From contig CALWFV010000010.1 in assembly GCA_944377745.1 (NCBI GenBank), forward strand, positions 1 through 64,000: DNA of 64,000 nucleotides, written 5' to 3'. The position numbers were made by a program, and so were the translations under genes. Positions 19,901-44,830 of this stretch are shown here, in pieces. The number at the start of each line of letters is the position of its first letter. Positions within the stretch are counted from its first letter, which is position 1. The notes beneath the pieces were generated by a model. It saw only the letters and a program-made list of their open reading frames with translations. It had not been told where the DNA came from and did no database searches. The DNA is from an uncultured Mediterraneibacter sp. (GTDB taxonomy: Bacteria > Bacillota > Clostridia > Lachnospirales > Lachnospiraceae).

Positions 19901-20629
19901 ACTGGCTGGAGAGTATCCGGCAGTCAGACTTATTATTATCAGTCGGACGGACATCTGGCTATCGGAACTACATCAATAGATGGCAACGAATATTATTTCC
20001 AGTCAAATGGAGCAATGCTGGTAAATGCTTTTATGAATCACCGGTATTACGGCTCAAATGGAGCAAGGGTGGCTGAAAGCAGTTACGGAAGTATTTTCTA
20101 TAAAATAGAAGGAAGTTCAACAACTACTGTAGATCAGATGGTACGCTTTTATGAAGAGTATTCGCCGATTGATTACCCGTCTGAAGAACTGAAGAAAGGC
20201 GGAGCGGCGACGATACGTGATCTGGCTCAGATTTTCTATGAAGAGGCCTCGGCAGAAGGAATTAAGGCAGAAGTGGTATGGGCACAGACAATGCTGGAAA
20301 CAGGATATCTGAAATATGGAGGACAAGTGAAGATTTCACAGTTCAATTTTGCGGGATTAGGTGCGACTGACGGCGGCGCGGCTGGCGCAAGCTTCGATGA
20401 TGTCAGAACTGGCGTAAGAGCTCAGGTTCAGCATATGAAAGCATATGCGACTACGTCTGCTTTGAAGAATTCCTGTGTTGATCCACGTTTTCATCTTGTT
20501 ACCCGTGGCAGTGCACAATATGTGGAAATTCTCGGTCAGCAGGAAAACCCGAATGGATACGGCTGGGCAACCGGAGCTAATTATGGATTGAACATTAAAG
20601 GTATGATTGATAAAATTAAGAGATGTTGA
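16976..20629 (+). CDS. N-acetylmuramoyl-L-alanine amidase with wall-binding repeats and glucosaminidase domain
   Basis: 1217-residue secreted peptidoglycan hydrolase with two predicted catalytic domains. Order: signal peptide (1-29, cleavage near ALA); a Ser/Glu/Gln/Asp-rich linker to about 155; a beta domain (155-265); a second linker; Amidase_3 at about 373-585 with the zinc motif DPGHDSKHTG, the metal Glu in GLKEE, the His in VSIHLNSS and the catalytic Glu in IVEHAF; about 20 aromatic wall-binding repeats of the choline-binding type (588-1025, consensus GWRQDGDKTYYYD and YWYYFNGNG); and a C-terminal glucosaminidase-like domain with acidic ETGYL. It would cut the stem peptide and the glycan strand. 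It directly precedes the TarIJ locus. Confidence 0.93.
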   Translation: MKQKLLRLTAVLMFSCMVASSIPTGMALAEENVQADSSAEAVQEQGETGTESSVDAAQGSEQDSADSSDETTNQTADSGSQDEPQIDSQPEGGVESSSGSTSAESESSASGTAEENSAPAEETAESREAKEVQPQDDADGESKAEAEDQSQEDSVIEKNANEINYVFVESPYLETPGTERIAVSYGDGSETVSDATLTVRDDEGQETVWELSVSAGQVYLFTYDFSDESSTGTYEVVSLNVTDEEGEKNILLSDSGMEANFGVNEEYSGIEELTPLDADAAEEAAVEESAEVEATVAEIDPNNVEESVEQITDALQEAEAQTDTSDLSASIGENSSVSGRTASKSVSGNAASLMSVLGAKLQTAVAANARSGNGNVVVALDPGHDSKHTGASSNGLKEEVLTLKIAQYCKAELETYSGVTVYMTRTTAACPYPNNSSSGGDIGDRVIAAANAGADIFVSIHLNSSPSSSANGAEVIIPNSNWKPQVAQEGRELAQAILKELQAVGLNLRPNEIYSKDTTIGETYEDGSTSDYFAVQIYAKEAGIPGIIVEHAFLTNSGDRAHLDSEADLKELGVADATGIAKYLGLSKGEWRTEGGKKYYYVNGNKVTGAYRIGTSWYYFDPNNGGAMYTGWRQDGSRTYYYDENGVLALGAKKIGSYWYYFNGNGAMHTGWRQDGDKTYYYDAEGHLVQRDTVIDGITYYFASNGVMTGKQQMGSTKIDNYWYYFNADGSKYIGWRQDGNKTYYYDAEGRLAQGVNKIDGYWYYFNSNGTMYTGWRQDGDKTYYYNAEGHLAQGKTDIDGKKYYFNGNGTLMAPGTVKVGLYWYFIQNDGSLFVGWRHTDGNTYYYDSEGRLAQQPTVIDGTTYYFNGNGTMVVQGPEKIGSYWYYINGDGSRYVGWRTDYKGTYYYDSEGRLAQGVKKIENYWYYFNGNGTMYTGWRQDGDKTYYYDSQGRLAQGNTKIGNYWYHFNGNGSMYTGWRVSGSQTYYYQSDGHLAIGTTSIDGNEYYFQSNGAMLVNAFMNHRYYGSNGARVAESSYGSIFYKIEGSSTTTVDQMVRFYEEYSPIDYPSEELKKGGAATIRDLAQIFYEEASAEGIKAEVVWAQTMLETGYLKYGGQVKISQFNFAGLGATDGGAAGASFDDVRTGVRAQVQHMKAYATTSALKNSCVDPRFHLVTRGSAQYVEILGQQENPNGYGWATGANYGLNIKGMIDKIKRC
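18741..20050 (+). repeat. Tandem wall-binding repeat array inside the amidase gene
   Basis: About 20 repeats of 20-22 codons encoding paired Trp/Tyr-rich motifs (GWRQDG..TYYYD, YWYYFNGNGTMYTG). Several copies are nearly identical at DNA level, for example ACCGGCTGGCGACAGGATGG near 18865 and 18980, so repeat number may change by recombination. The type binds choline in pneumococcal proteins and carbohydrates in clostridial ones; the ligand here is unknown. Confidence 0.85.
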
Positions 20630-31192: not shown

Positions 31193-32137
31193 ATGCCGTT
31201 AGTATCAGTTATTATTCCGGTATATAATGTAGAGCAGTATTTAAGGCAATGTCTGGACAGTGTGATAACTCAGACACTGTCAGATATTGAAATTATTTGT
31301 GTAGATGACAGCTCGACAGACGGTTCTTTAAAAATTCTTGAAGATTATAAAAGGAAAGATGAGCGTATCAAAGTAGTAACTCAGCCCAACAGCGGGGCAG
31401 GGGCTGCACGGAACAGAGGATTATCGATAGCCTCAGGGAAATATCTTTCTTTTCTCGATTCGGACGATTTCTTTGAGCCTGATATGCTGGAACTGGCTTG
31501 CCGGAAAGCAGAGGAAGACAGAGCAGACTTTGTAGTTTTCAATTCTGATCAGTATTACACGGAGAAGAAGAAATTTATTAATGTCTCCTGGACCCTGAGA
31601 GAAAAGGAAATTCCGCCGTATACACCATTCAGCCACCGGCAGATGACAGACAATATTTTTAAAGTCTTTGTGGGATGGGCATGGGATAAGCTGTATAATA
31701 AAGAATTTGTGGAAAAAAATCATCTTTTGTTTCAGGAACAGAGAACGAGCAATGATATGCTGTTTGTATTCAGCGCAGTTGCAATCGCAAAAAGAATTTC
31801 AGTTGTCAATAAAGTATTGGCACATCAGAGAAGGGATGCAAAAGATTCCTTGTCAAAGACAAGGGAAAATTCCTGGTACTGCTTTTATGATGCTCTGACT
31901 GCACTGCGAGACAGGCTGAAAGAGGAAGGAATTTATAAAGAGACAGAAAAAGATTACATAAATTATGCGCTTCATGCTGTTTTATGGAATATTAATACGT
32001 TAGCAGAGCCTACAAAGTCAAAACTGATTCATAAGATGAAGACAGAGTGGCTTGAGGATTTAGGGATAAAAGATAAGCCGGGGAATTATTTTTATAACGA
32101 AAAAGAGTATAAACAATACAAAAAAATTTTATTGTGA
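31193..32137 (+). CDS. GT2 family glycosyltransferase E
   Basis: 314 residues, GT-A domain: VSVIIPVYNVEQYL, VDDSSTDGSL, QPNSGAGAARNRG and FLDSDDF. The C-terminal half has KVFVGWAWDKLYNKEFV, common in small GT2 enzymes of capsule and teichoic-acid loci. ATG 31193 is preferred over TTG 31172 since AAAAGGAGC lies between the two. Specificity unknown. Confidence 0.88.
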   Translation: MPLVSVIIPVYNVEQYLRQCLDSVITQTLSDIEIICVDDSSTDGSLKILEDYKRKDERIKVVTQPNSGAGAARNRGLSIASGKYLSFLDSDDFFEPDMLELACRKAEEDRADFVVFNSDQYYTEKKKFINVSWTLREKEIPPYTPFSHRQMTDNIFKVFVGWAWDKLYNKEFVEKNHLLFQEQRTSNDMLFVFSAVAIAKRISVVNKVLAHQRRDAKDSLSKTRENSWYCFYDALTALRDRLKEEGIYKETEKDYINYALHAVLWNINTLAEPTKSKLIHKMKTEWLEDLGIKDKPGNYFYNEKEYKQYKKILL

Positions 32138-32148
32138 GATGGGAAAAT

Positions 32149-34023
32149 ATGTTAAAAAAAGCATTTTGTAGCATTTTACTTGGATATATAAGTACGTTTG
32201 CTGTTTGTATGCAGGGCACAACAGTTGTCTCAGGAGCAGTTGTACAAAAAATGGCCGGAGAAGTAAGCGGAATAAGGGTAGAAGCTGTTATTGTTTTGGC
32301 CTGTCTCTGCAGTCTGTATTATAAAAGACAAGATATTTTATTTAAAAAAGTTGAAATAATTCCTTTTGTAATTGCAGCTTTGTTTTCGGGTTTTACATTG
32401 ATAGGATTGAGTTATACGGCAACAGGAAATTGGGAGTTTATTTTTAAAGAAGAAAAACAGTTTCTCATTGCATTATTCACTGGAGCAGGTTATTTCTTTT
32501 TGTATTATCTTTGCCTTCTGCTATTGTTTTCTCATTTGGGGAAATTAAGAAAAAATTCGGGAGAAGCGAATAGAATACGCATAATACCTAATTTCTTTAA
32601 AAAGCATTTTTTACTTTCATGTACTTTATGTATGCTCTTTTTTTGGTCGCCATATGTCATAACACATTTTCCGGGCTCGGTTCCGAGTGATGGATATACA
32701 CAATTAGCGCTGTATTTTGGGTTTGGTACGCCATCAAATCATCATCCATGGATTGTAACATTGTTTTTTGGAAGTATAATGTCTCTCGGAAGAGTGATTA
32801 GTGATAATGTCGGGGTGGGGCTGCTCATAGTTGTGATGAGCATAATTGAAGCTTTATGCTATGCAGAAATATGTAATAAGCTTTATAAATGGAATTGTCC
32901 AGAATTGGGAATAGTGGCCGCACTGTTGTTTTATTGTATTGTCCCACCATTCGGTGCATATGCCCAGGCAGTAATTAAAGACAGTCTTTTTTTTGCCTTA
33001 TTTGCTCTGTATATCTCTTTTTATGCAGAAATCTGTTTGTTCAAGTTGAAGCTAAAAGAGAATGTATGCCTTAAGAAAATTATAATTTTTACGCTTATCA
33101 GTATCTTGGTTTGCCTGTGCAGAAATAACGGGTTTTATATGGTGCTTCCCGCCAATATCATTCTTGTTTTTTTGTTGAGGAAAAAGAAAAAGATATATCT
33201 TGCCGGCTCACTTTTTTGCCTTATATTTGTATGGATTTGCTATAATAGCGTCTTTTTGCCATTATCAGATGTTCAGCCTGGTTCAAAACGTGAAATGTTA
33301 AGTGTTCCTTTTCAACAGACAGCCCGGTACATAAGCAGTTATCCCGATGAGGTTACACAAGAGGAGAAAAATGCCATTGCTAAAGTTCTTGATTATGAGC
33401 ATATTGCAGCAAACTATAATCCGGAAGTATCAGATCAGGTAAAAAATACGTTCAATGAGCATGCTACCAATGAAGAGTTGAAAAATTACTTCCGGGTGTG
33501 GCTGCAAATGTTTTTTAAGCATCCGGCAGTTTATATACAGTCTTTTCTCGCAAATTCATATGGATATATTTATCCCTTTAGTAATCATGATATTGTTGAT
33601 GCATATCAGTTTTATATAAGATATGAGCCGCAGAAAGATCCGGAAAAGGGATTGAATATCTATTATGTTTTTGATTATTCAGTGAGAAAAAGTGTAGAAG
33701 GATGGTCAGAATTGTGGAGAACGGCTCCGGGACTCTCTCAAATACTTAATCCCGGAACTTATTCATGGATTTTGTTTGTCTTAATCGGAATACTTATTAA
33801 ATATCGACAGTGGAGATATATCCATGTGATGACAGCGCCTTTTCTAAATATAGCTGTGTGTTGTATGTCACCTGTGAATGGACTTCTGAGATACAGCTGG
33901 CCGTTAGCTGCCGGTATGCCTGTTCTGATTTTTGTTACATTTGTTTGTGTTCGGAGATTCAAGAAAAAACAAGTGTTGTACGCAAATGGGAGACAATTTG
34001 ATAATACTTTCCAAAATGTATAA
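32149..34023 (+). CDS. Large polytopic membrane protein, DUF6020-like
   Basis: About 624 residues with a dozen or more hydrophobic segments and a soluble stretch (residues 385-510) that carries charged residues. An extracytoplasmic-type loop HFPGSVPSDGYTQ followed by NHHPWIVT matches what I recall of the DUF6020 family, whose members look like GT-C enzymes that use polyprenyl-phosphate sugars. The family and activity are by recollection and topology. Codon use is AT-rich next to its neighbours. GTG 32134 and ATG 32149 are both possible starts. Confidence 0.7.
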   Translation: MLKKAFCSILLGYISTFAVCMQGTTVVSGAVVQKMAGEVSGIRVEAVIVLACLCSLYYKRQDILFKKVEIIPFVIAALFSGFTLIGLSYTATGNWEFIFKEEKQFLIALFTGAGYFFLYYLCLLLLFSHLGKLRKNSGEANRIRIIPNFFKKHFLLSCTLCMLFFWSPYVITHFPGSVPSDGYTQLALYFGFGTPSNHHPWIVTLFFGSIMSLGRVISDNVGVGLLIVVMSIIEALCYAEICNKLYKWNCPELGIVAALLFYCIVPPFGAYAQAVIKDSLFFALFALYISFYAEICLFKLKLKENVCLKKIIIFTLISILVCLCRNNGFYMVLPANIILVFLLRKKKKIYLAGSLFCLIFVWICYNSVFLPLSDVQPGSKREMLSVPFQQTARYISSYPDEVTQEEKNAIAKVLDYEHIAANYNPEVSDQVKNTFNEHATNEELKNYFRVWLQMFFKHPAVYIQSFLANSYGYIYPFSNHDIVDAYQFYIRYEPQKDPEKGLNIYYVFDYSVRKSVEGWSELWRTAPGLSQILNPGTYSWILFVLIGILIKYRQWRYIHVMTAPFLNIAVCCMSPVNGLLRYSWPLAAGMPVLIFVTFVCVRRFKKKQVLYANGRQFDNTFQNV

Positions 34024-34040: not shown

Positions 34041-36611
34041 ATGATTGAGACTAAGCTAAAAAAAATTTTGCAAAAAGATGTATTTATTTATTGCATAGCA
34101 TTTTTAATTCCTGTTCTCGTGTTTTTGGCAGCAATGTGGATGAGAGATATATTTCCAATGGGGAAAAATTCTGTCTTAGTATGGGATCTTGAAATACAGT
34201 ATATCGATTTGTTTGCCTGGTTCAGAAATGCTCTTCATAGTGGGGAAGGTCTTTTTTATTCTTTCTCAAAATCCCTGGGTGGTAACATGTTCGGACTTTT
34301 TTCGCTGTATCTTACCAGTCCTTTAAATCTTCTGATCTACTTTTTTGATGTGGAAGATATTCCTGCTTTTTTTTCGCTGATGACAATTTTAAAAACAGGT
34401 CTGGCAGGACTTACGATGAGTGTTTTTGTCATAAAGCGGTTTGGGATTAAAAACAAATTTATTGTTTTGATCTGTTCGGGAGCATATGCACTGTTTGAAT
34501 ATAATATTGCTTTTTGCAGCAATATTCATTTCCTGGATTCTGTCTATATGCTTCCACTGGCGGCACTGGGCGTCTGGAAACTGGTAAACGGCAGAAAGAA
34601 TACGCTGCTTTATATCTCGACGGCATATGTGATCATCTGCAACTGGTATATTGGCTACATGGTATGTCTGTTTACCGTATTTGATTTCTTTTTTGAATAT
34701 TATCTGAGCAGTCAGGGAAAAACTTTAAAAATGTTTCTTTGCAGTGGAATGCGCTACGTGGGGACAATGATCCTGGGAGTGCTTACCAGTTCTGCGTTTT
34801 TTATTCCGGCAGTCCTGGCGGCAATGAACGGGAAAGGCACACTGAGTTTTGATAAACTGCTCCCGGATTTTCACGTGGATCCGTTATATCCGCTCAGAGC
34901 ATTGTTTATAACCTCTCCGACAAATTCGGAACATGGACTTCCTGCAATATATATTACCTACCTGATCATAATTTTCTGTGTGATGCTGATCATTAACAGA
35001 AAAATTAGTAAAAGAATAAAAAGAGCAGTTTTGGTATTTTTGTTTTTTGTTTTTATTAGTTTTTCTTTTGTTCCCCTCGAGATTATCTGGACAGATTTTA
35101 AAGAAACGTTTTCATTCCATCACAGATATGCATTTGTTTTTGGATTTCTGATGGTAATGGCAACAGCTTTTTTTATAAAAGAGATAGAGAAAGACAGAAG
35201 CATCTTTTCGATAAAAGATCTTCTGTTTTCAGGAGCGGCACTGGGATTGTATTTCTGTGTCCAGGATCTAGTATCGGATCTTGGGACAAAAAAGCAGATG
35301 TTGCTGACAATGGGAATCATTGGTGTTTATGTGGCTCTTGTCGGGGCGGCGATGCTGTTTTATATGAATAGAAAGATCAGATTTTTGGCAGGATCTGCGA
35401 TTCTTCTCTGGTTCGTTTCGGAACAAATATATAATGTGAGGAATGATTTTGGAAAATATCATATCACTTTGGCGGAATACCGGGAGTATGCTGAGGGGAT
35501 GAAAGAGGCTGTCGATGAGATAGAAACAGGGGAGAAATCTGTATTCTATCGGACAGAAAAAACATTTTCAGAAATGTCAGAACGAAGAGAAGACAGAGAA
35601 CCAGCGGCGTCAGAAGGATTTGTTTATGGATATAGAGGGATAGCACATTATAGCTCGACCTATGATACAGAAGTAAACGATTTTCTTGTTCAGATGGGAT
35701 ACTGTAAACAGGATGCAATGGCATCAAATTATGTAGATACAAATTTCCTGGCAGATTCTCTTCTTGGTGTAAAATATATCATGAGCGAAGAAGAACAGGA
35801 TACGCTGGAGACAGTATCAGCATATCCGGGGCAGGAGAAAGCATATATATATCAAAATGGATATGCTCTGGACTTTGGAACGGTGTGCAGAGGTGAAGCG
35901 ACAGATTTTCAGTGGGAGATAAACCCGTTTGAGAATGCACAGAAAATCTTAAATGCGCTGCTCGGTGAAGAAAATGAATATTATACGGAGCTTTCCCCTC
36001 AGATGACAGATGATGAAGAGGTGTCCTGGAACATTGAGGTCCAGAGGACTGGCCCGGTTTATGCATATTTTAATAATGGACATGCGGATGCAGACGTATA
36101 TGTGGACGGGAAATTCAAACAGACTTATTTTGGAAGATTCTATAAAAATGTTATGTATCTTGGAACATATGAAGAAGGGGATACGATCAAACTGAAACTG
36201 AAAGATACCTATGACAGAGATTATGATTTCCGACTTATTGCAGTAAGTATGGATGAAAAATTGACAAAGGAAAAACTCAGTCAGGCAAAAGAGAAGGGAT
36301 TTGATCCCGACATTGTCAGAGGCGGCTATGTGAAAGGCGAGTACGAAACTAATGAAAACACCAGCATGCTGCTTCAGGTTCCCTATGATGAAGGCTGGAC
36401 TATTGCCATCAATGGTGAAGAAGTAGAGTACGAGCGTGCATTTAACGGTTTAATGCAGATTGAAGTGCCTGAGGGAAGCAGTGAAATAGTAATGAAATAT
36501 TTCCCGCCAGGTCTATTGGCTGGCATGGCATGCACTGTGGTTGGGATTGGCTTGTTTTCAGGATGGAGGATTACAGAATGTAAAAAGCAAAAAAAGGGGA
36601 ACAGGACATAA
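34041..36611 (+). CDS. YfhO family membrane protein (putative GT-C glycosyltransferase)
   Basis: 856 residues: hydrophobic segments through about residue 480, then an extracytoplasmic soluble domain (480-825), then a last transmembrane helix and basic tail. This is the YfhO layout. YfhO-type proteins are thought to use undecaprenyl-phosphate sugars, made by a partner GT2, to decorate lipoteichoic acid outside the cell (CsbB/YfhO in Bacillus, GtlA/GtlB in Listeria). Conserved features include the early MWMRDIFPMG and ILVWDLEIQY-like segment and an extended C-terminal beta-rich part. The ArnC/GtrB-like gene at 41825 is the natural partner. AAAAGGAG precedes the ATG. Confidence 0.85.
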   Translation: MIETKLKKILQKDVFIYCIAFLIPVLVFLAAMWMRDIFPMGKNSVLVWDLEIQYIDLFAWFRNALHSGEGLFYSFSKSLGGNMFGLFSLYLTSPLNLLIYFFDVEDIPAFFSLMTILKTGLAGLTMSVFVIKRFGIKNKFIVLICSGAYALFEYNIAFCSNIHFLDSVYMLPLAALGVWKLVNGRKNTLLYISTAYVIICNWYIGYMVCLFTVFDFFFEYYLSSQGKTLKMFLCSGMRYVGTMILGVLTSSAFFIPAVLAAMNGKGTLSFDKLLPDFHVDPLYPLRALFITSPTNSEHGLPAIYITYLIIIFCVMLIINRKISKRIKRAVLVFLFFVFISFSFVPLEIIWTDFKETFSFHHRYAFVFGFLMVMATAFFIKEIEKDRSIFSIKDLLFSGAALGLYFCVQDLVSDLGTKKQMLLTMGIIGVYVALVGAAMLFYMNRKIRFLAGSAILLWFVSEQIYNVRNDFGKYHITLAEYREYAEGMKEAVDEIETGEKSVFYRTEKTFSEMSERREDREPAASEGFVYGYRGIAHYSSTYDTEVNDFLVQMGYCKQDAMASNYVDTNFLADSLLGVKYIMSEEEQDTLETVSAYPGQEKAYIYQNGYALDFGTVCRGEATDFQWEINPFENAQKILNALLGEENEYYTELSPQMTDDEEVSWNIEVQRTGPVYAYFNNGHADADVYVDGKFKQTYFGRFYKNVMYLGTYEEGDTIKLKLKDTYDRDYDFRLIAVSMDEKLTKEKLSQAKEKGFDPDIVRGGYVKGEYETNENTSMLLQVPYDEGWTIAINGEEVEYERAFNGLMQIEVPEGSSEIVMKYFPPGLLAGMACTVVGIGLFSGWRITECKKQKKGNRT

Positions 36612-36732: not shown

Positions 36733-38130
36733 ATGCATAAACATTTACACAAGTTTGAGACTATGATGTGGCTTTGCATTAAAGCCTTGTTATATATATT
36801 ACTGTTATTTGTTTTTATGAAGGTTCTCGGGAGAGAAAATATAGGGCTGGTGCGTTTATCAAGGACAATGGGAATCACGATCATGACATTTTTTATTGTC
36901 GGAATCCTGTTCCTCTCTATATATGGGAAATATGATGTGGGCAGAAGGAAAAGCAAACCGATCATTAACTCCCTGTCTTTGGCTGTGATCTGTACAGATA
37001 TTGTTACTTATCTTCAGGTTATGATAATGAGGACCAACGTACCGGATATTCATGAATTTGAATTCCAGAGTATCGGACTCCTTTTTCTTGCGATGTTTTT
37101 ACAGATTTTGGCGATCGTGTTCTTTACCTATGCAGGAAACGCACTCTTTTTTACGATCCATGAACCTGAGAAATGCTGCGTAATAACTTCTTCTCAAAAG
37201 AGTTTGGATGAAATCGTTTTTGCAATTCAGAGATTCAAAAAACAATATAAGATTTCGTTTGTACTCAATTATCGTGATCCTCAAATAGGGGAACAGATAA
37301 AAATGGTGGACACGGTGTTTATATATGATATTCCGGTTGATGCCAGAACGAATATAATGCGCTGGTGTTATAAATTTAAAGTAAATGTGTATTTTAATCC
37401 GGAAATAGAAGACATTATGGAATTGAATGCCACACAGTATGTTCTGGATGATGTTTATTTACTGAATAAAAATGTAAAAACATTTACAATGGAACAACGA
37501 ATTATGAAGCGATTGCTTGACATTTTTCTTTCCCTTGTCCTGGGGATTTTAACCTCTCCCCTGTGGCTGGCAGGAATGATCGCAGTTAAGCTGTATGATG
37601 GAGGTCCTGTGATCTTCAAGCAGGAGAGAGCGACAATTAATGGCCGGAGATTTGAGGTGTACAAGCTGCGGACAATGAAGCAGAATGTCCGAAACTATTC
37701 GGCAGTCAAAAATGACAATCGCATAACACCTCCGGGTAAGCTTCTTCGGAGAACGAGAATTGATGAACTTCCCCAGCTTCTTAATATCTTAAAAGGAGAT
37801 ATGACTTTTGTAGGGCCAAGACCTGAGATGATCTCAAATATTGAGAAATATACAAAGGAACTTCCGGAGTTTGAATATCGGTTAAGAGTGAAGGCGGGAC
37901 TGACGGGGTACGCTCAGATCGCAGGGAAGTATAATACAACGCCAAAGGACAAACTTGTCATGGATATGATGTATATTGAGCAGTTCAGTGTGTGGAGAGA
38001 TATTCAGCTGATCCTTCAGACGGCGGGGGTGCTTCTGAAATCAGACAGTGCAGAAGAATTTGATAAGAGAAAAAGGCAGTCGAGATACATTTTCCCGGAT
38101 ATAGATCAGAAAGAAAAAAGCAATAGTTAA
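36733..38130 (+). CDS. Undecaprenyl-phosphate sugar-1-phosphate transferase (WbaP/WcaJ-like)
   Basis: Initiating enzyme: moves a hexose- or HexNAc-1-phosphate from a nucleotide sugar to undecaprenyl phosphate. 465 residues from ATG 36733, preceded by GGTGGTGAG; TTG 36715 is weaker. Four transmembrane segments (about 12-140), a nucleotide-binding-like middle domain (residues 145-250), then the catalytic part with a re-entrant helix, KLYDGGPVIFKQERA, the RTRIDELPQLLN motif (catalytic Asp-Glu) and FVGPRPEM. The transferred sugar cannot be read. It could initiate the polymer exported by TagGH or a separate glycan. Confidence 0.92.
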   Translation: MHKHLHKFETMMWLCIKALLYILLLFVFMKVLGRENIGLVRLSRTMGITIMTFFIVGILFLSIYGKYDVGRRKSKPIINSLSLAVICTDIVTYLQVMIMRTNVPDIHEFEFQSIGLLFLAMFLQILAIVFFTYAGNALFFTIHEPEKCCVITSSQKSLDEIVFAIQRFKKQYKISFVLNYRDPQIGEQIKMVDTVFIYDIPVDARTNIMRWCYKFKVNVYFNPEIEDIMELNATQYVLDDVYLLNKNVKTFTMEQRIMKRLLDIFLSLVLGILTSPLWLAGMIAVKLYDGGPVIFKQERATINGRRFEVYKLRTMKQNVRNYSAVKNDNRITPPGKLLRRTRIDELPQLLNILKGDMTFVGPRPEMISNIEKYTKELPEFEYRLRVKAGLTGYAQIAGKYNTTPKDKLVMDMMYIEQFSVWRDIQLILQTAGVLLKSDSAEEFDKRKRQSRYIFPDIDQKEKSNS

Positions 38131-38147
38131 GATAACAGGAGGGGTAT

Positions 38148-39236
38148 ATGAGAACTTATCTGGTAACAGGAGGAGCAGGTTTTATCGGCTCAAATTATAT
38201 TCACTATATGTTAAAAAAATATGGTGATGAGATCAGGGTGATCAATGTTGATAAACTAACTTATGCGGGGAATCTGGAAAACCTGAAAGATATAGAGAAA
38301 AGAGAGAATTATGTGTTCATACAGGCGGATATTTGTGATTCGGAAAAGATAAATCATATCTTTGAGGAAAATGAAATAGACAGAGTGGTTCATTTTGCGG
38401 CAGAGAGCCATGTTGACAGGAGTATAACGGATCCTGAGATATTTGTAAAAACTAATGTTTTGGGGACATCTGTCATGCTTAATGCCGCAAAAAAAGCATG
38501 GGAACAGCCGGATGGTACATTTAAAAAGGATAAAAAATTTCTCCATGTGTCGACAGATGAAGTGTATGGTTCTCTTGAAAATTCAGATGAGTTTTTTTAT
38601 GAGACAACTCCTTATGATCCGCATAGCCCCTACTCCGCGAGTAAGGCGTCGTCAGATATGCTGGTGAAGTCGTATATAGATACATACAGATTCCCGGCAA
38701 ATATTACAAATTGCAGCAATAATTACGGGCCGTATCAGTTCCCGGAAAAACTGATCCCTTTGATCATCAACAATTCGCTGCAGGGAAAGAAAATCCCGGT
38801 ATATGGTGACGGGAAAAACGTCAGGGACTGGCTGTATGTAGAAGACCATGCAAAAGCGATCGATATGGTTCAGGAAAAGGGAAAACTTTTTGAGAAGTAT
38901 AATATTGGGGGACATAACGAAAAGCAGAATATTGAGATCATTCATATTATTTTAGAGACTTTGCACAATATGCTTCCCGAGGATGATGCGAGAAAATCAC
39001 GGATAAATGAATCATTGATCACATATGTGACTGACAGAAAAGGACATGACAGACGATATGCTATTTCGCCTGATAAAATGAAGAAAGAAACAGGCTGGGT
39101 TCCGGATACAATGTTTTCGGAGGGGATCCGTCTTACCGTTAAATGGTATCTGGATCATCAGGACTGGATGAAAAATGTGACAAGCGGTGAGTATCAGAAC
39201 TACTATAAAAAGATGTATGATGCAAAAACAGAATAG
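38148..39236 (+). CDS. rmlB: dTDP-glucose 4,6-dehydratase
   Basis: Converts dTDP-glucose to dTDP-4-keto-6-deoxyglucose. 362 residues of the extended SDR family: Rossmann motif [32 protein letters not shown], the YSASK catalytic Tyr-Lys pair and [14 protein letters not shown], which is diagnostic for RmlB. AGGAGG precedes the ATG. No rmlC or rmlD is present; rmlA and a 4-aminotransferase follow, so the keto sugar probably goes to an amino sugar. Confidence 0.96.
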
Positions 39237-39274
39237 AACAATATAATGTCTTACATGTGTGGAGGAACCGTTTT

Positions 39275-40138
39275 ATGAAAGGAATTATTTTAGCAGGTGG
39301 ATCCGGAACGCGTTTATATCCGTTGACAAAAGCTGTTTCAAAACAGATTATGCCGGTATATGACAAACCAATGATCTATTACCCATTGTCCACTCTTATG
39401 CTTGCAGGGATACAGGATATCCTTGTGATCTCCACGGAAAGGGATGTTCCTGTCTTTGGGCAGCTGCTGGGTGACGGGGGGCAGATTGGACTGCGGATCT
39501 CTTATAAGGTTCAAAGTAAACCGCGAGGTTTGGCAGAGGCATTTCTTATTGGGGAAGATTTTATTGGCGCGGACAGAGTCGCCCTTGTTCTTGGTGATAA
39601 TATTTTCTATGGACAGAGTTTCTCTACAATTCTTGAGAATGTGGCATCCAGGGAGGAAGGCGCTACAATTTTCGGATATTATGTCAATGACCCGAGGGAA
39701 TACGGGGTCGTGGAGTTTGACAGCGACTGGAATGCAGTGTCTATAGAGGAAAAACCTGAAAATCCAAAATCTAATTATGCTGTACCAGGGCTGTATTTTT
39801 ATGATAATAGTGTGGTGGATCTGGCTAAAAATGTAAAACCGTCTTCGAGAGGCGAGTTAGAGATTACCAGCATAAATAACGAATATCTCAGACAGGGAAA
39901 GCTGAAGGTGCAGCCTCTCGGAAGAGGGTTTGCGTGGCTGGATACCGGAAATCCTGACGCGCTGATAGAAGCGGCAAATTTTATTGCGACGATTCAAAAA
40001 CGTCAGGGACTCTATATCTCCTGTATTGAGGAGATTGCCTATAAAAAGGGATTTATTGATTCAGAGCAGCTGAAAAAACTTGCCGGGGACTTGATAAAAA
40101 CACCCTATGGACAGTATCTGAATAATCTTATCAAATAA
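39275..40138 (+). CDS. rmlA: Glucose-1-phosphate thymidylyltransferase
   Basis: Makes dTDP-glucose from glucose 1-phosphate and dTTP, the first step of the dTDP-deoxysugar route. 287 residues from ATG 39275, which has GGAGGAAC about ten bases before it; GTG 39257 would add six residues and include the ribosome site. [42 protein letters not shown] and [15 protein letters not shown] are the RmlA hallmarks. Confidence 0.96.
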
Positions 40139-40154
40139 TCAAAGGAGTAGAAAA

Positions 40155-41288
40155 ATGATACCTTTTAATATCCCGCCATATACAGGTGATGAAGATCAAT
40201 ATATGAAAAAAGCGATTGAAAATCATAAAATCTGTGGCGATGGGGAATTTACAAAAAAGTGCAATGAATGGATCGAGGAAAAGACAGGCACTCCCAAAGC
40301 ACTTTTGACGACATCATGCACGCACGCGCTGGAACTCGCCGCCATACTGCTCGATATTCAACCGGGAGATGAGGTGATCATGCCTTCCTATACCTTTGTT
40401 TCTACTGCAGATGCATTTGTATTGAGAGGCGCGAAGATCGTTTTTGTTGATATCCGCCCGGATACGATGAATATTGACGAACAGCTGATAGAAAATGCTG
40501 TAACAGACAGGACAAAAGCTATTGTGCCGGTTCACTATGCGGGAGTCTCCTGCGAGATGGAAAAGATCATGGAAATCGCCCATAAGTATAATCTTGCAGT
40601 GGTAGAAGACGCTGCCCAGGGAGTGATGTCTTTTTATAAAGGCATGGCGCTCGGCTCAATAGGAGATTTTGGCTGCTTCAGTTTTCATGAAACAAAGAAC
40701 TACAGCATGGGGGAAGGCGGCGCCCTGCTGATCCAGCGGAAAGACAAAATAGAAGATGCGGAAATTGTCAGAGAAAAAGGTACAAACAGGAGCAAGTTCT
40801 TTCGGGGACAGATTGATAAGTATACATGGGTCAATGTGGGGTCTTCTTATCTTCCAAGTGATATTAACGCGGCTTATTTGTATGCGCAGTTAAAAAGGGC
40901 GGAAGAAATTAATGAAGACAGGCTGGCAAGCTGGAAGTTTTATTATGAGTCTTTTGAAGAACTGAAAAGGAAAGGCAGAATCGATCTTCCGGTTGTTCCT
41001 TCTGAGTGTAAGCATAACGCACATATGTTTTATATCAAGGCGAAAGATCTGGAGGAGAGGACCGCTCTGATCACTTTTCTGAAAGAAAGAGATATATTGA
41101 GCGTATTTCATTATATTCCTCTGCATTCGGCGCCTGCCGGACAGAAATTCGGGAGATTCTCAGGAGAGGACAAGTACACAACAAAGGAAAGTGAGCGCAT
41201 AATCAGACTGCCGATGTATTATAAACTTACAGCTGAGGACAAGGAAAAAGTGGTATCAGCTGTCTACGATTTTTACAGAGAAAGATAG
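40155..41288 (+). CDS. wecE: dTDP-4-amino-4,6-dideoxygalactose transaminase (WecE-type)
   Basis: PLP enzyme of the DegT/DnrJ family. 377 residues with motifs strikingly like E. coli WecE/RffA, which makes dTDP-Fuc4N for enterobacterial common antigen: ICGDGEFTKKC, IQPGDEVIMPSYTFVSTADAF, PVHYAGVSCEM, EDAAQGVMS, the PLP lysine in SFHETKNY (about residue 181), EKGTNRSKFFRGQ and VFHYIPLHSAPAG. With RmlA and RmlB it completes a route to dTDP-Fuc4N. Product identity rests on family resemblance and context. Confidence 0.92.
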   Translation: MIPFNIPPYTGDEDQYMKKAIENHKICGDGEFTKKCNEWIEEKTGTPKALLTTSCTHALELAAILLDIQPGDEVIMPSYTFVSTADAFVLRGAKIVFVDIRPDTMNIDEQLIENAVTDRTKAIVPVHYAGVSCEMEKIMEIAHKYNLAVVEDAAQGVMSFYKGMALGSIGDFGCFSFHETKNYSMGEGGALLIQRKDKIEDAEIVREKGTNRSKFFRGQIDKYTWVNVGSSYLPSDINAAYLYAQLKRAEEINEDRLASWKFYYESFEELKRKGRIDLPVVPSECKHNAHMFYIKAKDLEERTALITFLKERDILSVFHYIPLHSAPAGQKFGRFSGEDKYTTKESERIIRLPMYYKLTAEDKEKVVSAVYDFYRER

Positions 41289-41291
41289 GCG

Positions 41292-41828
41292 ATGTATATG
41301 GAGCTTGAGAATAGCAGAGTTGTTTTGAGATTGATCGATGAAAGTGATACAGGTAATATTGTTGCCTGGAGAAACAAAGAAAGTGTAAAACGGCATTTTA
41401 TTTATCAAAAACCGTTTACAGCAGAAGGGCATACAGCGTGGCTGCAGAATATGGTCAAAACAGGAAAGACTGCTCAGTTTATTATCTACAGCCGAACGTT
41501 AAAAAAGGATGTTGGTTCGGTTTTCCTCCGCGATATTGATCATGATAACAGAAAAGCGGAATACGGGATTTTTATCGGAGAAGATGACGCGCGAGGACAG
41601 GGGATAGGAACTGCTGCGGCAGAACTGATTACCAGATATGGTTTTGAGGAGCTTAAGCTGCACAAGATATTTCTCCGGGTATTTGCAGATAATATGCGGG
41701 CGATAAAGAGTTATGAGAAAGCCGGATTCAGGCAGGAAGCATATTTGAAAGATGAAGTTTATATTTCGGGGATGTTTCGGGATATTGTTCTTATGGCTCA
41801 ATTTGAGATGGGGAGTACATGTAAATGA
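41292..41828 (+). CDS. GNAT family N-acetyltransferase
   Basis: 178-residue RimJ/RimL-like acetyltransferase with ENSRVVLRLIDESD at the start, the acetyl-CoA loop DDARGQGIGTAAAE and the C-terminal NMRAIKSYEKAGF. Its place between the WecE-like gene and a glycosyltransferase suggests it acetylates the 4-amino group of dTDP-Fuc4N (as WecD does in E. coli), but it is not clearly a WecD orthologue. It starts three bases after the aminotransferase stop, and the next gene's ATGA overlaps its stop. Confidence 0.85.
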   Translation: MYMELENSRVVLRLIDESDTGNIVAWRNKESVKRHFIYQKPFTAEGHTAWLQNMVKTGKTAQFIIYSRTLKKDVGSVFLRDIDHDNRKAEYGIFIGEDDARGQGIGTAAAELITRYGFEELKLHKIFLRVFADNMRAIKSYEKAGFRQEAYLKDEVYISGMFRDIVLMAQFEMGSTCK

Positions 41829-42754
41829 AAATATCATTTGTAATTCCGTGTTATCGTTCTGAACATACAGTAGAAGAGGTTGTTTCTCAGATACAGGACA
41901 CAATGAATGGAGCATATGAGTATGAGATTATTTTAGTCAACGACTGTTCTCCTGATAGAACATTTTGTACAATAGAAAGACTGTGTAAGAACAATGATAA
42001 TATTATCGGGATAAATCTTGCGAAAAATTTTGGACAGCATTCCGCTTTAATGGCTGGATTTCATTATGTGTCGGGTGATATCATCGTCTGTCTGGATGAT
42101 GATGGACAGACACCGCCCTCAGAAGTCCATAAATTGCTTGAAAAGTTAGAAAATCAGGAAACTGATGTTGTTTATGCGGAATATGTAAATAAAAAGCACT
42201 CTGCTTTCAGAAATCTGGGGAGCTGGATCAATGCAAAGATGGCGGAGTATCTGATAGGAAAACCCAAAGACTTATATGTTTCCAGCTATTTTGCGGCAAA
42301 ACGGTTTGTCATTGATGAGGTTATCGGTTATAAGAATCCGTATCCGTATGTGATTGGCCTGATCCTGCGGACAACAAAAAATATTGTAAATGTGACGGTT
42401 GACCATCGGGAGAGGGAAGAAGGGACATCCGGGTATACATTAAAAAAACTGCTGGAGTTATGGTTTAATGGTTTTACAGCATTTTCTGTCAAACCTTTGC
42501 GGATCGCGACACTTATCGGTATGTTTTTTGCAGCAGCAGGATTTTTGTATTTAATATACACAATAATGAACAAAATCGTTAATCCAAATGTTCCGATAGG
42601 CTGGAGTTCGATGATGTCAGTCCTGCTCGTTGTGGGCGGATGTATTTTATTTATGCTGGGACTGATAGGAGAATATATTGGAAGGATCTATATCAGTTTG
42701 AATAATTCTCCACAGTTTGTTATAAAAAAAGTGATAACGGGAAAGGAAGAATGA
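41825..42754 (+). CDS. ArnC/GtrB-like polyprenyl-phosphate glycosyltransferase
   Basis: 309 residues. The N-terminal GT2 domain (FVIPCYRSEHTVEEV, VNDCSPDRT, LDDDGQTPP) is of dolichol-phosphate-mannose-synthase type, and the REREEGTSGYTLKKL plus FSVKPLRI segment leads into two C-terminal transmembrane helices (about 228-248, 260-285). Such enzymes (ArnC, GtrB, CsbB) put one sugar on undecaprenyl phosphate at the inner face of the membrane. The donor here is probably the dTDP-amino sugar made by the genes just before it. Confidence 0.92.
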   Translation: MKISFVIPCYRSEHTVEEVVSQIQDTMNGAYEYEIILVNDCSPDRTFCTIERLCKNNDNIIGINLAKNFGQHSALMAGFHYVSGDIIVCLDDDGQTPPSEVHKLLEKLENQETDVVYAEYVNKKHSAFRNLGSWINAKMAEYLIGKPKDLYVSSYFAAKRFVIDEVIGYKNPYPYVIGLILRTTKNIVNVTVDHREREEGTSGYTLKKLLELWFNGFTAFSVKPLRIATLIGMFFAAAGFLYLIYTIMNKIVNPNVPIGWSSMMSVLLVVGGCILFMLGLIGEYIGRIYISLNNSPQFVIKKVITGKEE

Positions 42755-42755
42755 A

Positions 42756-43100
42756 GTGACAGAGGTAAAACTGAAAGACTTTTTGATCCTGCATTTTGTC
42801 CTCTTGATTTATTCGGGGGCAGCTTTATTATCAAAGACGGCGGCTTCACAGACAGGGATTAAGTTTTTTCTCTGCTATGGAGCAGTACTTGCGTGCCTTG
42901 GAATATATGCAATATTGTGGCAGCTCGTCCTGAAAAGGTTTCCTTTGACTACTGCATTTGCTAATAAAGCGGTTGTTGTAGTCTGGGGAATCCTCTGGGG
43001 ATGGCTTTTTTTTGGCGAACAGATCACATTGCAGAAATTGGCGGGAGCGGCAGTGATCATAGTGGGAATAGTGATTGTGGTAAGTGATAATGAAAAGTAG
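42756..43100 (+). CDS. Small four-TM protein, ArnE/SMR-like flippase subunit 1
   Basis: 114-residue protein with about four transmembrane helices, related to the SMR/EamA-half family (VVVVWGILWGWLFFGEQIT is the SMR-like third helix). In the Arn pathway, the small proteins ArnE and ArnF move Ara4N-phosphoundecaprenol across the membrane. Starts with GTG 42756, right after the glycosyltransferase stop, with AAAGGAAG upstream. The order glycosyltransferase, SMR, SMR copies the arnC/arnE/arnF logic. It could instead be an unrelated drug-efflux homologue. Confidence 0.82.
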   Translation: MTEVKLKDFLILHFVLLIYSGAALLSKTAASQTGIKFFLCYGAVLACLGIYAILWQLVLKRFPLTTAFANKAVVVVWGILWGWLFFGEQITLQKLAGAAVIIVGIVIVVSDNEK

Positions 43101-43440
43101 TATAGTTTTTCTGATCATGTTTTTAATTTCAGTTTTTATTTCTTCGTGTTCCCAGATCGCACTGAAAAAAAGTGCAAATGGCGAACATCGCAGTTTTATC
43201 CAGGAGATTTTGAATCCGGTGGTCATGGGGGCGTACGCCTGTTTTTTCGGGGCGTCTCTTCTCACCACTCTGGCATATAAAAGAGTGCCTCTTTCACTGG
43301 GAACTGTTCTGGAGTCGACAAGTTACATCTATATTGTAATCCTTAGCAGAATATTTTTAAAAGAAAAGATCACCCGGAAAAAAATATGGGGCAACCTGTT
43401 GATCCTCATAGGAATACTGATATACGCAAGCGGAGTGTGA
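43090..43440 (+). CDS. Small four-TM protein, ArnF/SMR-like flippase subunit 2
   Basis: 116 residues with about four transmembrane segments: a start segment with QIALKKSANG, GAYACFFGASLLTTLAYKR in the middle, and SRIFLKEKITRKKIWG before the last helix, a common EamA/SMR feature. It overlaps the preceding gene by 11 bases (ATG 43090; GTG 43084 is an alternative), so the two are likely translated together as a heterodimer. The flippase role is inferred from this pairing and the ArnC-like neighbour. Confidence 0.8.
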   Translation: MKSSIVFLIMFLISVFISSCSQIALKKSANGEHRSFIQEILNPVVMGAYACFFGASLLTTLAYKRVPLSLGTVLESTSYIYIVILSRIFLKEKITRKKIWGNLLILIGILIYASGV

Positions 43441-43447
43441 ACAGATT

Positions 43448-44830
43448 ATGTCTAAAAACGTAAGAAGACGCGGCAGACGCCGGCGCCGAACAAAAAGAGG
43501 AAATTGGTTTGCCAGGCTGGCTGCATGGCAGAAGGTGCTTATCTGCACGGCAGGCGTGCTCGCCTGTCTGGTTGGTTCTGCAGTTGTCTATGTTGCTGCT
43601 CAGTGGAGCAGGATTGACAGACAGGAGATAGCGGCGGATGATCTGATCATCAACCAGGAGGTGCGGGAACAGAATACGAATATCGATCTGGGAGAAGGGT
43701 ATACTAATATCGCTATTTTCGGGGTGGATTCAAGAGATGGAAATCTGGGAGAAGGCAACCGGACAGATATGATCATTGTTGCCAGTCTCAATAACGAGAC
43801 GAAAGAGATCAAACTTGTTTCTGTCTACAGGGATACTCTGCTCAATCTTTCGGAGGGGACTTATCAGAAATGTAATGCAGCGTACAGCTATGGAGGGCCT
43901 GCGTTGGCCATCAATATGCTGAATATGAACCTGGACCTGGATATTGAAGATTATGTGACCGTTGATTTCGGAGCCATATCGGATGTGATCGATCTCCTCG
44001 GAGGCGTGGAGATCACGATCGAGGAAGAGGAGCTGGAAGCGTTCAACAAATATGTGACCGAAACGGCTCGGGTGGCCGGAAAAGAAGCCCACAGGATAGA
44101 GGAAGCGGGAACATATCTGATGGACGGCCCGCAGGCAACCACATATGCGCGTATCCGATCCACTGCAGGAGGGGACTTTACCCGCACAGAAAGACAGAGG
44201 GTTGTCATTGAAAAGGCCGTCGAAAAGATCCAGAAGGCAGATCTGCTTACGATCAACAGTATTATCAACGAAGTATTTCCACAGATCTCAACCAGTTTTA
44301 CACTGCAGGAAGTTCTTTATTATGCCCAGGCATATTCTCAGTATAAGCTTGTGGAAAATACCGGTTTTCCGTTTGACCAGACGACAGATAATGTCTCCGG
44401 ACTGGGAAGCATCGTTATCCCGCAGGATCTGACGGATAACGTGTCTCAGCTGCATGAGTTTCTGTTTGATGATAAGGACTATACACCTTCTGAGACTGTC
44501 AGTTTGATCAGTTCCACCATCCTATCGACTGTGGAGTACAGCAGTTCGTATGACGACAGCTATGATGATTATGATGATGGCTACAGTTATGACAACAGCG
44601 GAAACTATGATGATTCTGAGTCTTCTTATGGTGGAAGCAGTGATTACAGTAATAATTCGGGCGGATATGATGAGCCGGATGATTATGGCGGCAGTTCGGA
44701 TTACAGCAGCGGAAGTTCTGATGATTCTTCATATGACGAGGATTATGATTCTTCTTACGGAGATGGAAATACTGATACGGAGACAAGCTCCGGGACAGAG
44801 TCTTATGGCGGGGAGAACACAGTGGAATAA
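43448..44830 (+). CDS. LytR-CpsA-Psr (LCP) family ligase, second copy
   Basis: 460 residues. A highly basic N-terminus (RRRGRRRRRTKRG) precedes one transmembrane helix (about 28-50); the LCP core runs from about 75 to 340 with IAIFGVDSRDG, YRDTLLNL, GGVEITI and TYARIRSTAGGDFTRTERQR, containing the arginines needed for binding the polyprenyl pyrophosphate. The last 95 residues are a low-complexity Ser/Asp/Tyr/Gly tail. It starts eight bases after the small flippase-like gene and closes the operon; it is the likely ligase for the polymer made here. Confidence 0.93.
   Translation: MSKNVRRRGRRRRRTKRGNWFARLAAWQKVLICTAGVLACLVGSAVVYVAAQWSRIDRQEIAADDLIINQEVREQNTNIDLGEGYTNIAIFGVDSRDGNLGEGNRTDMIIVASLNNETKEIKLVSVYRDTLLNLSEGTYQKCNAAYSYGGPALAINMLNMNLDLDIEDYVTVDFGAISDVIDLLGGVEITIEEEELEAFNKYVTETARVAGKEAHRIEEAGTYLMDGPQATTYARIRSTAGGDFTRTERQRVVIEKAVEKIQKADLLTINSIINEVFPQISTSFTLQEVLYYAQAYSQYKLVENTGFPFDQTTDNVSGLGSIVIPQDLTDNVSQLHEFLFDDKDYTPSETVSLISSTILSTVEYSSSYDDSYDDYDDGYSYDNSGNYDDSESSYGGSSDYSNNSGGYDEPDDYGGSSDYSSGSSDDSSYDEDYDSSYGDGNTDTETSSGTESYGGENTVE

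Follow-up and report, generated by a model that had tools for sequence, protein, structure and literature searches.

Analysis of a 64,000-nucleotide stretch from an uncultured Mediterraneibacter sp. (contig CALWFV010000010.1, positions 1 to 64,000; hereafter the window) revealed a gene set that probably encodes a multi-component transmembrane glycosylation module of the Gram-positive type, handling a 4-N-acylated 4,6-dideoxy-hexose. We propose that RmlA and RmlB would supply dTDP-4-keto-6-deoxyglucose, which the aminotransferase WecE would aminate at C4 to give dTDP-linked 4-amino-4,6-dideoxy-galactose (dTDP-Fuc4N). A GNAT enzyme would acetylate the 4-amine in the cytoplasm, yielding dTDP-Fuc4NAc, and an ArnC-type glycosyltransferase of family GT2 would transfer this sugar onto undecaprenyl phosphate (Und-P). 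The resulting Und-P-Fuc4NAc would be flipped by a heterodimer of two SMR proteins (SMR1 and SMR2; SMR here means the EamA/ArnE kind), after which a GT-C glycosyltransferase, either the DUF6020 or the YfhO protein, would add the sugar to an acceptor outside the cytoplasm, for which the teichoic-acid-like polymer of this cluster is the most likely candidate. An LCP (LytR-CpsA-Psr) ligase would then link the polymer to the wall. Loading onto Und-P and flipping are supported by a recurring gene order, the co-occurrence of WecE with GT2 and six GNAT-GT2 fusions. Altogether, the gene set is real, widespread and functionally coherent, and represents a new combination of parts of known kinds.

The eight predicted genes are open and lie on the forward strand between positions 36733 and 43440, with coordinates that agree with an earlier annotation made from the letters and open reading frames (ORFs) alone (the sequence-only reading). 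Its gene order of initiating transferase, RmlB, RmlA, WecE, GNAT, GT2 and two SMR genes was likewise confirmed by ORF and family matches (Table 1). Intergenic gaps within the run are at most 38 bp, in addition to overlaps of 4 bp between GNAT and GT2 and 17 bp between SMR1 and SMR2. The run continues after a 7-bp gap into the LCP gene at 43448, and two GT-C-type genes sit directly upstream (32134 and 34041), the YfhO gene being separated from the transferase gene by 121 bp. The order WecE-GNAT-GT2-SMR1-SMR2 is found again in many of the 80 loci compared (the WecE loci from relatives, to which all locus counts below refer unless another scope is named), which indicates that the run is more than a chance assembly. 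In the nearby Candidatus Mediterraneibacter norfolkensis, WecE is 98% identical and GT2 is identical over 308 columns.

At the level of family assignment, the identities of RmlA, RmlB and WecE are established, each scoring above the cut-off of its model. The window WecE shares 65% identity (243/375) with E. coli WecE and aligns over its full length to the solved WecE structures 6blg (576 bits) and 4piw (570 bits), the next PDB sequence scoring 166 bits. The pyridoxal phosphate lysine is residue 181, and the motifs GDGEFTKKC and FHYIPLHSAPAG start at residues 28 and 318, respectively; together with the passed equivalog cut-off and the identity to the E. coli enzyme, they bear out the strong WecE resemblance claimed before. 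The enzyme might instead produce dTDP-Qui4N (viosamine), leaving the remaining mechanism unchanged, as the title of TIGR02379 (4,6-dideoxy-D-glucose transaminase) could imply. However, the solved WecE structures are far closer than any other PDB aminotransferase, and the identity to E. coli WecE and the passed cut-off of the galactose-product equivalog also make this product quite unlikely. The product is thus presumably Fuc4N, the galacto epimer at C4. The absence of RmlC and RmlD, noted earlier for the operon, extends to the whole genome (3.67 Mb, 85 contigs, 99.98% complete), in which nothing scored above cut-off for either. Their best matches are adjacent fragments on contig C1 at about 343.5-344.1 kb (L001, L009), the rmlC fragment having an internal stop, which points to an apparently decayed dTDP-rhamnose pathway. 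The dTDP route to Fuc4N put forward in the sequence-only reading is thus supported by the WecE equivalog match, co-occurrence and linkage.

A phylogenetic profile was built over 150 Lachnospiraceae genomes of 150 genera, 49 of which have WecE, with thresholds of at least 250, 100 and 150 bits for GT2, SMR2 and GNAT, respectively, chosen after the score gaps had been seen. GT2 was found in 43 genomes, comprising 41/49 with WecE versus 2/101 without it (p 3e-26), and SMR2 in 36 genomes (31/49 versus 5/101, p 2e-14), whereas GNAT occurred in 15/49 genomes with WecE and in 0/101 others (p 1e-8); these Fisher tests ignore kinship. WecE and GT2 lie inside 12 kb of each other in 26 of the 41 genomes with both; the other 15 hold them further apart or on another contig, and therefore their co-occurrence is not mere linkage. 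In a class-level set of 291 genomes, GT2 was present in 12/25 genomes with WecE versus 1/266 others, and beyond the family of the window in 6/18 versus 1/263. Judged by this gene content, WecE, GNAT and GT2 are evidently coupled.

Similarity searches demonstrated that the window GT2 shares 31% identity with E. coli ArnC, its top PDB match being ArnC (9hwj, 155 bits), although its score of 180.7 bits lies below the ArnC equivalog cut-off of 529. Hydropathy analysis placed two C-terminal hydrophobic helices at about residues 224-252 and 256-292. The Pfam assignment, PDB match and hydropathy agree with the ArnC/GtrB-like glycosyltransferase with two C-terminal helices that had been described from the letters alone. 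An operon holding two pathways was also considered, in which a cytoplasmic glycosyltransferase uses dTDP-Fuc4NAc for the main repeat while GT2, the SMR pair and the GT-C handle N-acetylglucosamine (GlcNAc), glucose or another sugar. It would accord with the GlcNAc, galactose or glucose added by relatives of the CsbB/GtlA/CsdA type (PMC8035078), with several further GT2 genes in the cluster and with SMR pairs found away from WecE. We regard it as unlikely, however, because GNAT is fused to GT2 in some relatives, and GT2 tracks WecE across genera even in the 15 genomes that do not keep the two within 12 kb. The donor of GT2 is presumably the dTDP-sugar made in the operon.

The nearest models of GNAT are PseH and spermidine acetyltransferase; PseH likewise acts on a sugar 4-amine. 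Comparison with E. coli WecD/RffC gave 25% over 157 columns at 24 bits, short of clear homology, and a profile match of 84% over 93 columns, which indicates no more than GNAT superfamily kinship; no WecD model was among the 19 NCBIfam matches of GNAT. GNAT is present in 48/80 loci and an ATP-grasp ligase in 11/80, both together in 0/80, and locus L076, which has neither, carries a hexapeptide acyltransferase between GT2 and SMR1. Exclusion among acyl enzymes is not general, since L029 combines ATP-grasp with a hexapeptide gene. Six loci (L033, L043, L048, L052, L054 and L063) encode single-ORF GNAT-GT2 fusions of 488-512 residues with the domains end to end. Queried with E. coli ArnD, phmmer found no homologue at E <= 0.01 among the ORFs of L001-L089, nor any at E <= 1 among those of the window.

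These observations bear on the free, positively charged amine suggested in the sequence-only reading, by which Und-P-Fuc4N would be loaded and flipped in an Arn-like manner, the wall polymer would gain positive charge and GNAT would serve some other purpose. The analogy with Arn, the spermidine acetyltransferases among the GNAT matches and locus L051, in which GT2 adjoins WecE and no acyl gene was seen, speak for it. Nevertheless, the restriction of GNAT to WecE genomes, its fusion to GT2, its substitution by ATP-grasp but never alongside it, the hexapeptide gene of L076 and the lack of a detected ArnD homologue render a free amine very improbable in the window. The sugar is probably capped before lipid loading, as dTDP-Fuc4NAc, the acyl group presumably being acetyl.

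Consistent with this order of steps, a tree of GT2 sequences, built by a quick method with branch support by SH-aLRT only, contains a (starred) group of 48 rows, 46 of which belong to GNAT loci, whereas no acyl gene was seen in the loci of the other two (L019 and L051). Outside this group are the ATP-grasp-linked GT2s and one GT2 from a GNAT locus (L038). Sorted by flippase, the 48 rows comprise 18 linked to SMR, 15 linked to GtrA (PF04138) and 15 with none seen nearby. The simplest reading is that acylation precedes loading, that GT2 recognises the acylated sugar and that the flippase is exchangeable. The loci with ATP-grasp in place of GNAT are L021, L024, L029, L030, L034, L050, L055, L065, L069, L083 and L084, and L055, L065, L069, L083 and L084 have an extra SDR gene; L021 and L034 stem from the cultured Anaerobutyricum hallii DSM 3353 and Coprococcus catus, respectively. 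The ATP-grasp form has the amino-acid-ligase C-terminal domain LAL_C2 (in the one tested) and might attach an amino acid to give an aminoacyl-Fuc4N.

Profile comparison of the SMR1 family with E. coli ArnE gave a probability of 96.6% with 36% identity over 74 columns, and no match to E. coli ArnF; the SMR2 family profile matched ArnE with 83% probability. The best NCBIfam match of SMR1 is also ArnE, below cut-off: SMR1 and SMR2 score 40.2 and 24.5 bits against the ArnE equivalog cut-off of 92, and 22.2 and 19.6 bits against that of ArnF (99). The core of the first transmembrane helix (TM1) carries an acidic residue in 0/27 family rows of SMR2 and 2/27 of SMR1. The pair thus displays the overlapping genes, the loss of the central TM1 glutamate and the closeness to ArnE that characterize lipid-type SMR proteins of the ArnE/ArnF subtype. 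Such lipid SMRs often carry Asn at the central Glu position and have been placed mainly in Proteobacteria (PMC9574504), and another paper makes SMR proteins the third class of flippases, exemplified by ArnE/ArnF, and includes a phage GtrA among them (PMC7389260). A drug or polyamine exporter that sits in the operon by chance would suit the SMR fold in general and the remote resemblance between SMR2 and EmrE chains, but is extremely improbable in view of the TM1 cores, the ArnE matches of SMR1 and the position of the pair between GT2 and a GT-C gene or RmlA in many loci. The ArnE profile match, the TM1 cores and the recurring linkage thus favor the flippase pair proposed earlier, and we infer that the SMR heterodimer flips an Und-P-linked sugar. 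Two GtrA genes lie elsewhere in the same genome, whereas the SMR pair is in the operon; in relatives, GtrA occurs within 10 kb of WecE in 21/80 loci, three of which also have the SMR pair.

Several observations weigh against the proposed module. No strong GT2 was found in 8/49 (Lachnospiraceae) and 13/25 (class-level) WecE genomes, suggesting that WecE has other uses. Conversely, GT2 is present without WecE in G040, which combines the SMR pair and GT2 with a distant ATP-grasp gene, in G108, where GT2 adjoins a different DegT-type aminotransferase, and in G385; the donor of GT2 may therefore vary, and the enzyme may accept related sugars. The GNAT resembles WecD only distantly, L038 breaks the GT2 grouping and L051 lacks a visible acyl gene. 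SMR2 hardly resembles ArnF in profile comparison, and the link of the SMR pair to this sugar is not exclusive: SMR2 occurs in five Lachnospiraceae genomes without WecE, its best copy lies within 12 kb of WecE in only 16 of the 31 genomes with both (17 counting a second copy in G133), and SMR genes stand near RmlB/RmlA without WecE in 6 of 15 extra stretches (L095-L098, L101 and L102, in the last of which SMR2 alone was recognised). These six stretches point to another role for this SMR family, whose substrates probably include more than one sugar lipid. Pfam checks, made on L095 and L097, revealed in both a GH25 lysozyme gene, bearing choline-binding repeats, between the SMR genes and RmlB/RmlA.

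For the last step, the predicted fold of the DUF6020 protein matches ArnT and other GT-Cs, a comparison on a low-confidence model that suggests a GT-C enzyme. The alternative candidate belongs to the YfhO family, regarded as GT-C (PMC8035078), and scores 219 and 206 bits with NF047589 and NF047590, far under their cut-offs. The DUF6020 fold match, the Pfam assignment of YfhO and GT-C genes found behind the SMR pair in relatives support the GT-C final step of the sequence-only reading. A GT-C family without a Pfam domain is encoded behind the SMR pair in 12 loci (L012, L015, L016, L017, L020, L025, L026, L031, L032, L044, L045 and L088), and its AlphaFold2 model (pLDDT 83) shows an ALG3/ArnT-like fold. 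The initiating transferase had been read as part of the module, which was not supported: counted from 3.5 kb before WecE to 6.5 kb after it, such a gene is present in 2/80 loci, and the one in the window probably serves the main polymer.

The module is embedded in a surface-polymer cluster that also has several GT2 genes, the DUF6020 and YfhO proteins and LCP genes (Table 1). As the Tar/Tag names depend on Pfam domains and gene order, the polymer is at most predicted to be a teichoic acid of the ribitol-phosphate type. GC content is 36-43% across the polymer cluster (20000-44000) versus 44-51% elsewhere; lowered GC is common in exchanged surface-polymer loci. Immediately before the cluster, positions 16976-20629 encode a 1217-residue protein with amidase and glucosaminidase domains and many choline-binding-type repeats, the ligand of which may be the decorated polymer.

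Table 1. Coordinates, strand and assignment of the predicted genes in the window
Feature	Position	Strand	Basis
TarI-like	20865		Pfam domains and gene order
TarJ-like	21578		Pfam domains and gene order
ABC exporter pair (TagG/TagH-like)	22617, 23430		Pfam domains and gene order
TagF-type polymerase	25248		Pfam domains and gene order
UDP-sugar dehydrogenase	27584		Surface-polymer cluster
DUF6020 membrane protein, predicted GT-C, candidate last-step enzyme	32134..34023	+	Best fold match ArnT, low-confidence model
YfhO/PgfM-like GT-C, alternative last-step enzyme	34041..36611	+	Pfam YfhO 502 bits
Polyprenyl sugar-phosphate transferase (initiating type)	36733..38130	+	Pfam Bac_transf 198 bits; TIGR03025 285 bits, below cut-off 296
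RmlB, dTDP-glucose 4,6-dehydratase	38148..39236	+	TIGR01181 484 bits, above cut-off 365
RmlA, glucose-1-phosphate thymidylyltransferase	39275..40138	+	TIGR01207 485 bits, above cut-off 361
WecE-type dTDP-4-keto-6-deoxyglucose 4-aminotransferase (dTDP-Fuc4N)	40155..41288	+	TIGR02379 665 bits, cut-off 435; NF008687 651.6 bits, cut-off 375, residues 1-374
GNAT N-acyltransferase, predicted to acetylate the 4-amine	41292..41828	+	PseH model TIGR03585 81 bits, below cut-off 93; GT2 fusions in relatives
ArnC/GtrB-type GT2, two C-terminal helices, predicted Und-P:dTDP-Fuc4NAc transferase	41825..42754	+	Pfam Glycos_transf_2; ArnC match
SMR subunit 1 (ArnE-like), predicted flippase half	42756..43100	+	Pfam EamA/SMR; profile match to ArnE
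SMR subunit 2, predicted flippase half	43084..43440	+	Pfam EamA/SMR; profile match to ArnE 83%
LCP (LytR-CpsA-Psr) ligase	43448..44830	+	Pfam PF03816 120 bits; 7 bp after SMR pair

Compared to the Arn system of E. coli (arnBCADTEF), the gene set shares a sugar 4-aminotransferase, an ArnC-type enzyme, an ArnE-like SMR pair and a GT-C resembling ArnT. In Arn the sugar is formylated before loading, and here too an N-acyl group is predicted to be added before that step. They differ in the route, which runs from UDP-glucuronic acid through ArnA and a formyltransferase in Arn but through dTDP-sugars and GNAT here, with no ArnD found; none of the ten proteins scanned was called ArnA, RmlA and RmlB being present instead. 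Moreover, none of the equivalog cut-offs for ArnC, ArnE and ArnF is reached, and the acceptor in a Gram-positive bacterium cannot be lipid A. Like the window, the Fuc4NAc branch of enterobacterial common antigen (RffG/RffH-WecE-WecD-WecF) has RmlB, RmlA, WecE and, for 4-N-acetylation, a GNAT-superfamily enzyme. That acetyltransferase is WecD, whereas the GNAT here is only remotely WecD-like (24 bits), and there Fuc4NAc is joined to a lipid linked to undecaprenyl diphosphate, in contrast to the single sugar predicted to be placed on Und-P.

The closest architecture is found in the Gram-positive multi-component systems CsbB-GtcA-YfhO, GtlA-GtcA-GtlB and CsdA-CflA-CsdB, which likewise combine a GT-A enzyme with C-terminal helices, a small flippase and a GT-C (PMC8035078). 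The GT-A enzyme with its helices and a GT-C in the cluster are both present in the window, YfhO lying upstream, and a wall polymer is the likely common acceptor. Those systems use a GtrA or Wzx flippase, and the sugars listed for them include galactose, glucose and GlcNAc (PMC8035078), whereas the window replaces GtrA or Wzx by an SMR pair of the ArnE type (Pfam EamA), and its sugar is a dTDP-linked 4-amino-dideoxyhexose made in the operon. The accessible part of that review names GtrA and Wzx as flippases and does not contain the term SMR (PMC8035078). The gene set is therefore Arn-like up to the flip, yet is best placed not among Arn systems but in the Gram-positive multi-component class, with an altered flippase and sugar. 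A further parallel is the ribofuranose system of Citrobacter youngae O1/O2, with the ArnE-like ORF14 and GT136, which shares a polyprenyl-phosphate-sugar synthase, a four-helix ArnE-similar flippase and a GT-C but makes a pentofuranose from phosphoribosyl pyrophosphate for a Gram-negative O antigen (PMC11127046).

Gram-positive dTDP-Fuc4N genes have also been predicted in Clostridium butyricum, in one cluster with TagGH (PMC12342839) and one flagellar cluster (PMC13317340). These were assigned to capsule or flagellar glycan, and the accessible parts of both papers mention neither an SMR pair nor an Und-P-sugar route (PMC12342839, PMC13317340). The sequence-only reading knew of no description of its combination. 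This stands for a Gram-positive set that unites WecE, an ArnC-like enzyme and an SMR pair, which was not found in the accessible open-licence literature, but not for the Clostridium dTDP-Fuc4N clusters (PMC12342839, PMC13317340) or for Gram-positive GT2/flippase/GT-C systems as such (PMC8035078).

It is conceivable, though tentative, that Clostridia possess a modular glycosylation machine with a constant WecE and ArnC-like GT2 and swappable slots, filled by GNAT, a hexapeptide enzyme or an ATP-grasp protein ending in an amino-acid-ligase domain for N-acylation, by the SMR pair or GtrA for flipping, and by the Pfam-less family, DUF6020 or YfhO as GT-C. If so, the Und-P-linked N-acyl-Fuc4N donors would form a family, with some of them aminoacylated and cationic after all, and lipid-flipping SMR pairs would be widely placed in Gram-positives. 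The swap of flippases on an otherwise similar GT2 offers a natural test of the way in which one lipid is recognised by SMR and by GtrA proteins. Should the proposed module be correct, Gram-positive gut bacteria would flip a lipid-linked amino sugar via an ArnE-type SMR pair, a subtype placed mainly in Proteobacteria (PMC9574504). Fuc4NAc would be widespread in Lachnospiraceae through a different acetyltransferase, compared to a genome survey whose accessible part places it in Gammaproteobacteria only (PMC7725333). DUF6020 and the Pfam-less GT-C family would gain testable functions, and the decorated polymer would likely present a surface epitope of common gut commensals.

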